IMG/VR virus record: IMGVR_UViG_3300029908_000084
Coordinates: 1 to 36,180 of that record
Length of the DNA: 36,180 nucleotides
Direction: 5' to 3' (one strand)
Source of the DNA: a virus
In this document: piece after piece, positions 418 to 30,253 of the stretch
Position numbering within the stretch: the stretch's first letter is position 1
How the letters are laid out: each line of letters starts with the position of its first letter
Notes under the pieces: generated by a model
Database searches by the model: none
What the model saw: the letters and a program-made list of their open reading frames with translations, nothing else
Told to the model about the DNA's origin: nothing
Made by a program: the position numbers and the translations under genes

Positions 418-449
418 ACTGGATTAAAACAAGTGAAAGTTGGAAATAA
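414..449 (+). pseudogene. Truncated N-terminal stub (MNWIKTSES...)
   Basis: An 11-codon ORF, MNWIKTSESWK, begins in an ATGA overlap with the previous ORF and stops at TAA 447-449. The start resembles the N-terminus of small phage proteins of the M-x-WIKTSE-x-LP type (DUF551-like), which are normally much longer; that link is from memory and is inference. The stop overlaps the ATG at 449 as TAATG, so even as a stub it could deliver ribosomes to the overprinted gene starting there. Confidence 0.35.
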
Positions 450-1297
450 TGGCATGGACAATCTCAAATGCAATGATGCAGGACTACGAGAGCTCGCGTT
501 GTTTGCTGGCGCCGGCGGTGGAATCATTGGTGGTCACTTGCTCGGATGGCGCACAGTCTGCGCAGTCGAATACAACGCCTACGCCAGATCAGTATTACTG
601 GCCAGACAAAACGACGGAACACTCGCGCCTTTCCCGATTTGGGATGACGTGCGAACCTTTGACGGCAGACCGTGGCAAGGACGTGTTGACGTGGTTTCTG
701 GAGGGTTTCCCTGTCAGGACATTAGCTGTGCAGGAAAAGGGGCAGGAATTGATGGAGAACGGTCTGGACTTTGGTCGGAAATGGCAAGGATTATTAGCGA
801 AGTACGACCGAGATTCACATTCATTGAAAACAGCCCAATGCTCGTTAATCGAGGACTTGATAGGGTGCTGTGTGATCTTGCCGCGATGGGGTACTCTGCA
901 AAATGGGGAATTGTTTCTGCTGCCGAAACCGGCGCACCTCACAAGCGAGAAAGAATTTGGATTATGGCCTACTCCGACAGTCAATGGGAATTACAACAGG
1001 AAGGGATTGTCTGCGACGAGTGGCGACGGATTAGCAACGGCGGTGAAGATGTGGCCAACGCCCTGTGCGACGAAAAGCAACACCTATGCGACACCACAAG
1101 CTCGGGATTTCCGAACGGGTCAAACAAGCCGCTGGGAAGACCCAAACCGTTCACGCAATCTGAACGATCAGATTGGTGGGCAACTGAACCCGACGTGGGT
1201 AGAGTGGCTGATGGGGTGGCCTTTAGGGTGGACCGAATTAAATCCCTTGGAAACGGGCAGGTTTCAAGAGTGGCAGCAACAGCATGGAGCATATTAA
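449..1297 (+). CDS. Overprinted 282-aa protein with WPTP repeats (second frame of the methyltransferase gene)
   Basis: This 282-residue frame lies +1 relative to the C5 methyltransferase and covers nearly all of it. It does not read like a chance shadow. It has an ordered N-terminal part (RLSRFGMTCEPLTADRG, residues 60-76; TWFLEGFPVRT, 81-91; KWQGLLAKYD, 111-120). Two repeats follow, LWPTP at 172-176 and MWPTP at 201-205, then the tail LNPTWVEWLMGWPLGWT at 246-262 and a closing FQEWQQQHG. I recognise this motif set from phage proteins usually called hypothetical or methyltransferase-associated, found beside or over C5 methylases. The ATG at 449 overlaps the stop of the upstream stub (TAATG), five bases before the methyltransferase ATG. 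The biochemical role is unknown; a target-recognition or partner role is only a guess. Confidence 0.7.
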   Translation: MAWTISNAMMQDYESSRCLLAPAVESLVVTCSDGAQSAQSNTTPTPDQYYWPDKTTEHSRLSRFGMTCEPLTADRGKDVLTWFLEGFPVRTLAVQEKGQELMENGLDFGRKWQGLLAKYDRDSHSLKTAQCSLIEDLIGCCVILPRWGTLQNGELFLLPKPAHLTSEKEFGLWPTPTVNGNYNRKGLSATSGDGLATAVKMWPTPCATKSNTYATPQARDFRTGQTSRWEDPNRSRNLNDQIGGQLNPTWVEWLMGWPLGWTELNPLETGRFQEWQQQHGAY

Positions 1298-1305
1298 GTG
1301 ACTGA
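454..1305 (+). CDS. Cytosine-C5 DNA methyltransferase (complete)
   Basis: A 283-residue DNA (cytosine-5) methyltransferase using SAM. Motif I is LFAGAGGG (residues 16-23), motif IV is GGFPCQDIS (83-91) with catalytic Cys88 or the adjacent position, motif VI is IENSP (124-128), motif VIII is KRERIWI (164-170), and motif X is GNGQVSRVAATAW near the C-terminus. The length fits short phage C5 enzymes with a small target-recognition region. I prefer ATG 454; an in-frame GTG at 433 lacks a clear Shine-Dalgarno. It probably masks phage DNA from host restriction, or serves as an orphan methylase. A second long gene is read in another frame over almost its whole length, so its codons are doubly constrained, above all across residues 172-262. 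Confidence 0.93.
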   Translation: MDNLKCNDAGLRELALFAGAGGGIIGGHLLGWRTVCAVEYNAYARSVLLARQNDGTLAPFPIWDDVRTFDGRPWQGRVDVVSGGFPCQDISCAGKGAGIDGERSGLWSEMARIISEVRPRFTFIENSPMLVNRGLDRVLCDLAAMGYSAKWGIVSAAETGAPHKRERIWIMAYSDSQWELQQEGIVCDEWRRISNGGEDVANALCDEKQHLCDTTSSGFPNGSNKPLGRPKPFTQSERSDWWATEPDVGRVADGVAFRVDRIKSLGNGQVSRVAATAWSILSD

Positions 1306-2435: not shown

Positions 2436-2830
2436 ACTCAACAAAACAAGAATGGCCAAAAACAATTCATTTGGAAAAATGGTCAACTGGATTTTCTGCA
2501 CATACACAAAGGGCGGCTCACCGGACTACGTATATCCGCGCAGATTTGATTAAGCCAATACAAGCAGAGCCTGTGGGTGAGGTGGAAGATGCGGAGGATA
2601 GCATCGTAACTTGGTTTGTTGAGCCTACAAACGGAATGCTTCTCTACACTCACCCCGCACCAGTCAACGTACTAACGGATGAACTGAAAGTGGAGTTGCG
2701 TGGAATAGCGGAGCGACTAAGAAAGGTTCCTTTTATTGAAGTCCCCGCTAGTGCCGACACAGAAATTAATAATATTGTGATTGATTTGGACGTAGCAATC
2801 GATAAACTAAATGCCTTGGAGGGGAAATGA
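2432..2830 (+). CDS. 132-aa phage hypothetical protein
   Basis: It begins MNSTKQEWPKTIHLEKW, then has TTYIRADLI, AEPVGEVED and LLYTHPAP. I know these blocks, in this order, from a loose group of phage hypothetical proteins of unknown function. The C-terminal 50 residues are predicted helical (LRGIAERLRKVPF to AIDKLNALEG). It is coupled by ATGA to the preceding ORF. It is the last gene of the rightward unit and ends 18 bases before the stop codon of the oppositely oriented holin gene. Confidence 0.7.
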   Translation: MNSTKQEWPKTIHLEKWSTGFSAHTQRAAHRTTYIRADLIKPIQAEPVGEVEDAEDSIVTWFVEPTNGMLLYTHPAPVNVLTDELKVELRGIAERLRKVPFIEVPASADTEINNIVIDLDVAIDKLNALEGK

Positions 2831-2845
2831 AACTAACCCCATGAA

Positions 2846-2862
2846 AATCTAATTTTTAGATT
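2846..2862. terminator. Weak AT-rich palindrome at the convergent junction
   Basis: AATCTAA, TTT, TTAGATT forms a perfect 7-bp stem with a 3-base loop exactly where the two transcription units meet, overlapping the stop of the holin gene. It is all A-T except one pair per arm. On the minus strand it is followed by a short T run, and on the plus strand by none. The position fits a shared terminator, but the stem is weak. Confidence 0.25.
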
Positions 2863-3409
2863 GCGCCATAATGTCTGTTTTTACCGCAGAAGAATGCGAA
2901 GTACCGTACCAATAACTTAAGACAACCATCAATATCGCGTCTAATGTGCCTAAAATTCGACCTGCCACAATATCATCTACTTCTTTTGGTACGCCGTTGA
3001 GCAACACAAAACCTTCTGCGTACAAACCAACTCCAAGAATGATAATAGATAAGAAAAACAAATAAATTTGTGTGCCGCCTTGTACGTTTGATTGCCTGGC
3101 AGAGATAACATTGTCGGTGTCCGATTTAATAATTGACGCTTGATAATCGTTATTAATTTTAATTACATCAATTTGCTGTTGAGACATAATTTCAACGTGC
3201 TTCTGATCTGCTGCGCGAATTGCTGAAACTTGGTCGGGTGTCATTTGGCCTGTTTGCATTACTTTGGTAATACCATCTACACCAGAACCCGCCGATAGCC
3301 CCAAAGCACCTTCAAGTGCAGTAACGGCAGTACCTGCTAATGGGCCGCCTAGCATGGTTGCTAACATGGGGGCAATGGTTGATAACGCTGATTTAAGATC
3401 GAAAGCCAT
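2849..3409 (-). CDS. Holin, three-TM type (GTA_holin_3TM-like)
   Basis: A 186-residue membrane protein that would form the inner-membrane lesion releasing the endolysin. The N-terminal hydrophobic and glycine-rich part (APMLATMLGGPLAGTAV, about 13-29) is followed by a charged linker (AADQKHVEIM...QASIIK). Two strong TM segments follow (about 114-134 and 150-168), then WYGTSHSSAVKT. This order matches the three-TM holin family first described for gene transfer agents. I chose ATG 3409 because AAAAGG lies upstream; a longer frame starting at 3481 would run into the endolysin gene without a ribosome site. It is the last gene of the late unit, just after the endolysin. Confidence 0.82.
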   Translation of the reverse strand: MAFDLKSALSTIAPMLATMLGGPLAGTAVTALEGALGLSAGSGVDGITKVMQTGQMTPDQVSAIRAADQKHVEIMSQQQIDVIKINNDYQASIIKSDTDNVISARQSNVQGGTQIYLFFLSIIILGVGLYAEGFVLLNGVPKEVDDIVAGRILGTLDAILMVVLSYWYGTSHSSAVKTDIMAQSKN

Positions 3410-3443
3410 AATTAAACCTTTTAATTTATATGATATTTTTTCA

Positions 3444-3884
3444 TTACACGCCCAAACGATAAGTTGCTTTGTCGCCGTCAAAATGCGCTGTTAATACTTG
3501 TTGACGCATGGCAGGTGCAAAACTGATATGAACCCATGTGCCTTCTTCAATCACTTGATCGAATTTAATTTGGCTAGAATTTAATTGCCGAACAATATCT
3601 AATGGTGTACCAAAATCAGAACAGATAAAATCAACGGCAAAACCGGATAGATGCGCTGAATCTTGAACACCGTGAACTTCTTTGTTTAGTGCAGGGCAAC
3701 GGTAGCCTGAATCAATGTGCATTGGCTTATCACCGAGTAATGATCTGACTAATTGAAGTTGTGAAGCCGTGAAGGTTAAAGCGTTAATAATGTCTGTTGA
3801 AGGCGTATTGTCTATGCCGTCACGTTGCGCTGTTTCGCTAAAGGTGAGTTCTTCAAGAGAAAAATGTTCAGATAATTGTGTCAT
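3444..3884 (-). CDS. Endolysin, M15A peptidase
   Basis: A 146-residue zinc peptidase of the D-Ala-D-Ala carboxypeptidase or L-Ala-D-Glu endopeptidase type (M15A), which cuts peptidoglycan stem peptides. Visible motifs are GYRCPALN (residues 60-67), SAHLSGFAVDF (76-86) with zinc ligands His78 and Asp85, and EEGTWVHIS (113-121) with a catalytic Glu and the third ligand His119. There is no signal peptide, so export depends on the holin encoded immediately downstream. The ATG overlaps the stop of the preceding membrane-protein gene (ATGA). Confidence 0.92.
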   Translation of the reverse strand: MTQLSEHFSLEELTFSETAQRDGIDNTPSTDIINALTFTASQLQLVRSLLGDKPMHIDSGYRCPALNKEVHGVQDSAHLSGFAVDFICSDFGTPLDIVRQLNSSQIKFDQVIEEGTWVHISFAPAMRQQVLTAHFDGDKATYRLGV

Positions 3885-29404: not shown

Positions 29405-30253
29405 ATGAAAAACGATCTATATCAAGAAATCACCGACAAAATTATTGAGCAAATGGAATCGTCAACAGAATCCTGGGTTATGCCCTGGACTACATCTGGA
29501 ACCATGCCACATAATGCAATTACTAAAAAACCGTACCGTGGCATCAATCTGTTTTTACTTTTTGCACCTGCTAGTGGAAATGGCTGGCTGACGTTCAAAC
29601 AGGCGCAAGAAGTAGGAGCAAATGTCAAAAAAGGTGAACACGGCCAGAAAATTGTTTTTTTTTCGCCTTTTGTCGTCACTGATGAAAAATCAGGTAAAGA
29701 AAAATCCATTCCTTTATTAAAACAATATACTGTTTTCCATACTTCACAAATTGAAAATTTGCCTGCACAATATTTAGACACAGTAAAGCCTATGCTTCCA
29801 GAATGTGAGCGTATAGCACAAGCAGAATTATTGTTATCTCAAGCAAACTTAAATTATGGTTCAGATAAAGCATTTTATCGTTCAGTAACAGATTCTATCC
29901 ATTTGCCTAACATTGGTGCATTTAAAAAAGTAGATGATTTTTATTCTACTGCGCTGCACGAATTAACACATTGGACAGGTCACGAAAAACGCTGCAACCG
30001 TGAATTTGGCAAACGTTTTGGTGACAGTGCCTATGCTAGGGAAGAATTAGTCGCTGAGTTAGGCAGTGCATTTTTAATGGCAGGTTTAGGCTTAAATGGC
30101 ATCAATCAACATGCAGCATATTTGAATAGTTGGATTAAAATTTTAAAAGAAGATAAAAAAGCCATTTTTGTTGCAGCTAGTGCAGCGCAGAAAGCAACTG
30201 ATTTTATTCTCTCTGCCAACCACGTTGAGAGCGAAGAATTAATGGCAGTTTAA
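29405..30253 (+). CDS. ArdC-type antirestriction protein
   Basis: A 282-residue protein with the two ArdC domains. The N-terminal ssDNA-binding domain shows LYQEITDKIIEQME, then PYRGINLFLL (43-52), WLTFKQAQEVGANVKKGEHG (61-80) and the TVFHTSQIENLP strand (109-120). The C-terminal metallopeptidase-like domain has ALHELTHWTGH (183-193; HELTH is the HExxH zinc motif) and AREELVAELG (211-220), whose Glu is the third ligand. ArdC proteins bind single-stranded DNA and protect incoming DNA from type I/II restriction. It has a clear ribosome site, TTAGGAGAAATAA, and is the first sizeable early gene, which fits protection at entry. Confidence 0.9.
   Translation: MKNDLYQEITDKIIEQMESSTESWVMPWTTSGTMPHNAITKKPYRGINLFLLFAPASGNGWLTFKQAQEVGANVKKGEHGQKIVFFSPFVVTDEKSGKEKSIPLLKQYTVFHTSQIENLPAQYLDTVKPMLPECERIAQAELLLSQANLNYGSDKAFYRSVTDSIHLPNIGAFKKVDDFYSTALHELTHWTGHEKRCNREFGKRFGDSAYAREELVAELGSAFLMAGLGLNGINQHAAYLNSWIKILKEDKKAIFVAASAAQKATDFILSANHVESEELMAV

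Follow-up and report, generated by a model that had tools for sequence, protein, structure and literature searches.

Can one stretch of phage DNA encode two full-length proteins in overlapping frames of the same strand, and what could the second protein contribute to the first? This question is raised by a viral record of 36,180 bases (IMG/VR; the whole of it is referred to here as the window), which carries phage head, packaging and lysis genes. On its plus strand, an ORF check located two reading frames exactly where an earlier note on this DNA had placed them: F1, a C5-cytosine methyltransferase, at 454-1305 (283 amino acids, P0001), and F2 at 449-1297 (282 amino acids, P0002), which lies in the +1 frame of F1, with 5 nt between the two starts and 8 nt between the two stops. 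On the grounds of sequence comparison, we regard it as very probable that a C5 methyltransferase is split over the two frames here, with F1 as its alpha subunit and F2 as its beta subunit.

The identity of F1 is readily established. It matches the M.HhaI family among the PDB sequences, phrog_363 in PHROGs (E 3e-71) and PF00145 in Pfam (E 1.2e-32), the latter over residues 14-179 alone and profile positions 4-168 of 324. All motifs listed by the earlier note were found in order, which marks F1 as a C5-cytosine methyltransferase: motif I (FAGAGG, 502-519), which binds SAM and was placed by alignment to M.HhaI; motif IV (GGFPCQD, 700-720), which includes PCQ with the catalytic Cys and is (nearly) invariant in the homologue alignment; motif VI (ENS), whose EN at 826-831 is invariant there; motif VIII (KRERIWI, 943-963), taken from the same alignment; and motif X (LGNGQV, 1246-1263), which aligns to the GNS motif of HhaI. 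C5 methyltransferases also require a motif IX, which follows the recognition region and precedes motif X. In F1 none lies between motifs VIII and X, and the Pfam match stops at position 168 of the profile. F2 has no match in Pfam or among the PDB sequences; it is matched in PHROGs by phrog_1008, named 'DNA methyltransferase' (E 1.5e-25). Searches with tblastn connected F2 to distant phages (to E 1e-43; 136 phage records) and F1 to 1,419 phage records. An AlphaFold2 model of F2 alone was poor (pLDDT 56, pTM 0.25) and no fold match was found for it, which could be explained if F2 is an obligate partner.

Any overlapping frame might be a mere shadow, shaped by the protein and codon usage of F1 and yielding no product of its own; conserved F1 motifs do dictate part of the F2 sequence, and Pfam has no family for F2. 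The expectation under this alternative was obtained from synonymous shuffles that preserve the F1 protein together with its codon usage. Shuffled in this manner, F1 of the window acquires a mean of 6.5 stops in the F2 frame and never zero in 20,000 shuffles, compared with none observed. Homologous loci were collected from viral contigs in two sets, one seeded with F2 (L002-L076) and the other independently with F1 peptides (L077-L156). In 37 non-redundant homologues of the latter set, found with F1 peptides only and hence selected without any contribution of F2, the F2 frame holds 63 stops versus 236 +/- 10 expected, and thus lacks the frequent stops that the earlier note had named as damaging to its claim; the +2 frame of the same 37 genes, used as a control, holds 588 versus 496 expected. 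Nearly all of the 63 stops fall in the first or last few aligned F1 codons, beyond the F2 ORF. Across all sets (190 non-redundant genes), 31 stops were counted in the F2 frame versus 883 expected, and 2760 versus 2328 in the other same-strand frame. Only 16 of the 190 genes contain an F2-frame stop, most of them from a distant clade in which F2 starts further downstream. The avoidance extends over the entire gene: when it is divided into five parts, the observed and expected F2-frame stops are 0/25.6, 0/30.9, 1/73, 0/26 and 1/41.

Individual loci display irregularities of their own. One homologue (L126) has an internal F2 stop near codon 120 with F1 intact, while F2 is open in its close relatives L122 and L123; this stop is possibly a natural knock-out of F2 or an assembly error. 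A prophage copy in E. coli PCP07014 (L353, 2863-2870) is interrupted in each of the two frames by stops lying within a few bases of one another, and the RefSeq pseudogene label of this gene rests on the F1 frame only. In L040 (about 2224-2260) and also in L043, a long G-run after motif IV (10 G in L040) accompanies a frame switch, in which the F1 and F2 halves exchange frames; L132 switches frame as well, without a G-run. The switch in L040 and L043 is a sequencing error, phase variation or a real swap, three readings that cannot be told apart.

A second signal lies in the paired start codons. In the window these occupy 449-456 (F2 ATG at 449, F1 ATG at 454), and both are preceded by the weak Shine-Dalgarno-like sequence GGAA at 442-445; a Shine-Dalgarno scan of the window gave no match, this GGAA being below its detection. 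Among 200 distinct loci the two starts lie no more than 28 nt apart, and 164 of them show a Shine-Dalgarno-like match upstream of the pair. The usual family spacing, present in 180 of the 200, is NTGAATGAG, with the F2 ATG 4 nt downstream of the F1 start. The spacing given by the earlier note is correct for the window, but its F2-first order is a minority form that occurs in 8 of the 200 loci. F1 begins with any of three codons (ATG 122, GTG 57, TTG 21), whereas F2 begins with ATG in 191 of 200 loci. The F2 ATG is contained in the codon for Asn-2 of F1, and in 170 genes chosen by their F1 protein sequence only, this codon is AAT in all 170 and AAC in none, compared with 61% AAC and 39% AAT for Asn codons elsewhere in F1. 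The start codon of F2 is protected.

Selection at the protein level was assessed in closely related pairs through third-position changes that are silent in F1, against a null without stops. For F2, such changes prove to be conservative (observed -0.862, null -1.208), with z 12.8 compared with 0.9 in the third frame and 2.0 and 1.4 in the neighbouring genes; since the pairs are partly non-independent, these z-values serve as guides and not as exact probabilities. The first two quarters of the gene, taken separately, give z values of 9.6 and 8.8. Changes in the F2 frame are consequently not neutral, a point on which the earlier note had made its claim depend. Substitution patterns further reveal which frame rules where. 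In the catalytic part, changes distribute over F1 codon positions 1, 2 and 3 as 28, 12-15 and 57-60%, so that F1 rules; in the variable, target-recognition region (962-1177) the distribution becomes 59-67, 17-21 and 16-20%, F1 position 1 being F2 position 3, and F2 is the dominant coding frame; at the gene end both frames are held (49, 18 and 33%). Since changes in the variable part fall mostly at the third position of F2, the recognition region is written in F2. Inside this region lie the PTP modules of F2 (968-976 and 1055-1063), and the WPTP repeats do coincide with the 'MAYSD' and 'VANA' of F1, as had been claimed from the sequence. A recurring module, PTPTVxGNYNRKGxSxTSGDGLA, shows 89% identity in F2 and 47% in F1, a comparison biased by the choice of the module by its F2 letters, and one that agrees with the codon-position pattern. 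F2 identity measured against shuffled codons was raised in the third frame too, because conserved wobble bases lift both frames, and is not part of our main evidence. PTP module number varies among relatives, with at least three 'LLPTPxxxD' modules in the beta-frame ORF of five loci (L374, L384, L470, L473 and L478); this number may relate to the length or identity of the target site.

Altogether, purifying selection acts at the protein level on both frames, as expected of a dual-coding gene, and the central claim of the earlier note is upheld by four lines of evidence: stop avoidance throughout F2, the protected F2 start, the conservative effect on F2 of changes that leave F1 unaltered, and the substitution patterns. 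The 31 stops in place of 883, the AAT in 170 of 170 genes and the F2-dominant changes in the variable part leave the notion of a productless shadow with next to no probability. At the level of sequence, a chance or shadow ORF is ruled out by the synonymous shuffles together with the start-codon and substitution tests.

What, then, does F2 supply? Its end, LNPTWVEWLMGWPLGWT at 1184-1234 in the window and LNPxWVEWLMGWPxGWT across relatives, offers an indication, supported by in-frame counterparts, by profile placement and by the phrog_1008 match. In a pattern scan, 120 phage loci carried WMMGxPxGW followed by an in-frame GNGVVP, and in 35 of these a single ORF contains motifs I-VIII, the F2-type WMMGxPxGW and motif X. 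As the same ORF holds motifs I-VIII in these 35 loci, the F2-type motif occupies the place of motif IX; the F2-profile scores of these single-chain enzymes are partly built in there, as the enzymes were picked by motif pattern. One of them (L436) provides a bridge via PHROGs that is independent of our own alignments: phrog_1008, the F2 family, matches its IX-X end (E 8.9e-33), and phrog_363, the F1 family, matches its whole length. The predicted structure of this enzyme can be superposed on M.HhaI with Z 25.5 and an rmsd of 3.1 over 234 residues, with the alpha-frame variable stretch at 159-223 disordered (pLDDT <50). A profile of the F2 end finds its best placement on motif IX in eight of nine cellular C5 methyltransferases, or in four of nine under a stricter overlap rule, the other four lying inside motif IX or at its edge by coordinates. 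HHalign of F2 against M.HhaI-type enzymes likewise put residues 245-273 on motif IX, as a weak match (P 0.22 for the whole, 0.022 for the C-terminus) obtained with an M.HhaI sequence that agrees with the compared parts of the PDB chain. By these comparisons the end of F2 is the motif IX that is missing from F1, and together F1 and F2 would provide the full motif set. A variant alpha end without WWxxEPxVGRVA occurs in L041, whose beta retains WLMGWPxxW; as the motif is kept despite the different alpha end, motif IX in F2 is no by-product of the usual F1 sequence.

The same elements occur in three layouts. In layout A, that of the window, alpha consists of motifs I-VIII plus X, and beta of the variable region plus IX. 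In layout B (68 of the 120 loci), alpha ends early after I-VIII, and a beta overlapping it in the +1 frame contains the variable region, IX and X. In layout C, motifs I-VIII, IX and X share one frame, and an F2-like +1 ORF still lies over the variable part in 33 of 34 loci that were re-scanned. In a further 8 of the 120 loci, alpha and beta are separate ORFs. Motif IX alone fails to explain why F2 is retained, given that the F2-like ORF persists over layout C; this suggests that F2 does more than supply motif IX, target recognition being the simplest candidate.

These layouts also bear on a different reading, in which ribosomes that started in F1 pass into F2 by a programmed frameshift, close to where motif VIII ends, and so produce one fused enzyme that joins the catalytic part to the recognition part and motif IX. 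The dominant frame does change from F1 to F2 at that very border, and in the 68 loci of layout B the target-recognition region, IX and X do lie together in one +1 ORF that overlaps the alpha end. We nevertheless consider such a frameshift unlikely, as it leaves unexplained the strict F2 start codon, the selection on F2 in the first half of the gene (the z of 9.6 and 8.8) and the absence of F1 stops across the variable part as far as motif X; moreover, F2 of the window has no motif X, so that a second shift would be required. F2 is therefore more likely to be translated from a start of its own than via a frameshift.

The distribution of F2 provides a further view of its function. A genome scan with the F2 alignment returned, among its best 80 loci, an F2 that overlaps F1 in the +1 frame in every case (80/80). 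These loci span many bacterial phyla, with Pseudomonas, Acinetobacter, Verrucomicrobiota, Clostridia, Actinomycetota, Synergistaceae and Patescibacteria among others, and include one archaeal bin. Judging from the loci recovered, hundreds of phages and prophages of many bacterial phyla share the dual-frame arrangement. A standalone F2, whose absence the earlier note would have read as speaking against its proposal, was thus found in none of these 80 loci. This absence is not counted against F2, because F2-like C-termini occur elsewhere in other layouts: some share a frame with motif X, and they are present in overlapping beta ORFs, the eight separate ORFs and the single-chain enzymes. The invariable company of a methyltransferase in these 80 loci also weakens the proposal that F2 is a real protein with a function separate from methylation, for instance in anti-restriction or regulation. 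The N-terminal third of F2, which has no known relative and is under selection of its own, would fit such a protein, as would the lack of a Pfam match, but the C-terminus corresponds to the motif IX absent from F1 and F2 rules the variable region of the enzyme, which renders a separate function very unlikely. Of the recognition or regulatory partner imagined by the earlier note, it is the recognition subunit that fits F2 best, because F2 appears to carry the motif IX absent from F1 and rules the variable region.

In the split methyltransferase that we favour, ribosomes would initiate at two start codons separated by a few nucleotides. F1 would give rise to alpha, responsible for SAM binding and catalysis (I-VIII) and equipped with the C-terminal motif X helix; F2 would give rise to beta, with the variable target-recognition region, its PTP modules and motif IX. 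The two proteins presumably bind each other, and it would be the alpha/beta complex that methylates DNA: as alpha is without the small recognition domain and beta without the catalytic domain, activity would be expected from the complex only. Ultimately, the phage enzyme would shield its own DNA against host restriction, and anti-restriction is its most likely role. An anti-restriction protein family match at 29405-30253 of the window (phrog_7245, E 3e-84) agrees with such a role of the methylases. Directly 3' of the dual gene, 1381-1974 is methyltransferase-like, with an NPPF motif and a match to phrog_799 'DNA methyltransferase' (E 2e-52), and the phage seems to carry two adjacent DNA methyltransferases.

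In a wider reading, which taken as a whole we hold to be somewhat more probable than its opposite, a large and ancient clade of C5 methyltransferases from phages and prophages would be obligately dual-coded, with the catalytic domain in one frame and a recognition domain, made up of PTP modules in varying number, wholly in the +1 frame; the catalytic motifs would be overlain by an additional N-terminal domain of frame 2. Through small indels, IX and X would shift between frames to create the three layouts, and specificity could evolve as modules of the beta frame. Overlaps of entire genes on one strand are very rarely preserved across phyla, and a gene-wide conflict that is settled region by region offers a natural test case for DNA shared by two proteins.

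There are practical consequences as well. Among twelve public loci compared by coordinates, F1 is annotated in eight, F2 in four (MG592600, OR683409, PP083311 and PP395640) and both in none; public records of a common phage enzyme thus hold only half of it. Assays of these methylases with F1 only may fail for want of beta, and the variable beta modules may offer a new route to reading target specificity. A Kluyvera locus (L482) has an alpha at 2524-3522 (phrog_363) and a +1-frame beta at 2618-3466 (phrog_1008, phrog_31772), in what looks like a P2-like prophage. DNA similar to this pair was found in 66 of 5,426 E. coli genomes, and the locus is a possible model near laboratory E. coli phages.

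How does this gene relate to systems already described? A literature search that covered subscription journals thinly yielded no account of such overlapping phage methylases, which is weak evidence of novelty, and the passages retrieved from a work on conserved frame transitions (PMC3711429) do not name this family. In PHROGs, the families matched by F1 and F2 of the window, phrog_363 and phrog_1008, are both called 'DNA methyltransferase' but are catalogued separately, and no statement was found that links them as two frames of one gene. Single-chain C5 methyltransferases such as M.HhaI agree in fold and motifs with what F1 and F2 would form together, as the superposed L436 model would suggest, but are written in one frame as one chain, in contrast to two frames and, by our reading, two chains here. 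Phage methylases of the ShiLan type conceal an HNH in another frame (PMC11855218); there, too, a second protein is hidden within a phage methylase gene, but it is an inserted homing endonuclease outside the methyltransferase proper. M.AquI consists of two polypeptides split at the variable region (PMC3404938). The 68 phage loci of layout B resemble this split, with a +1 overlap and the target-recognition region, IX and X in beta. The beta polypeptide of M.AquI bears IX and X, whereas motif X of the window remains in alpha.

The closest counterpart is M.EcoHK31I, which together with M.EaeI belongs to the two-polypeptide C5 methyltransferases. The gene of its large polypeptide also contains, in a different frame, the coding sequence of the small one, which is shorter than F2, as Lee and colleagues reportedly described in 1995, and both polypeptides were reportedly needed in vitro. 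The large subunit carries motifs I-VIII and X and motif IX resides alone in the small polypeptide, with the target-recognition region assigned to the large subunit (PMC3404938). Judged by this description, the division of motifs is the same as that proposed for alpha and beta; the differences are that F2 dominates the variable part here and that the overlap is nearly complete, with starts 4-5 nt apart. What appears to be new is therefore the breadth of the arrangement, the near-complete overlap, the paired starts, the placement of the target-recognition region in beta and the three interchangeable layouts. Seen in this light, M.EcoHK31I would cease to be a curiosity and would stand as one case of a type that is widespread.
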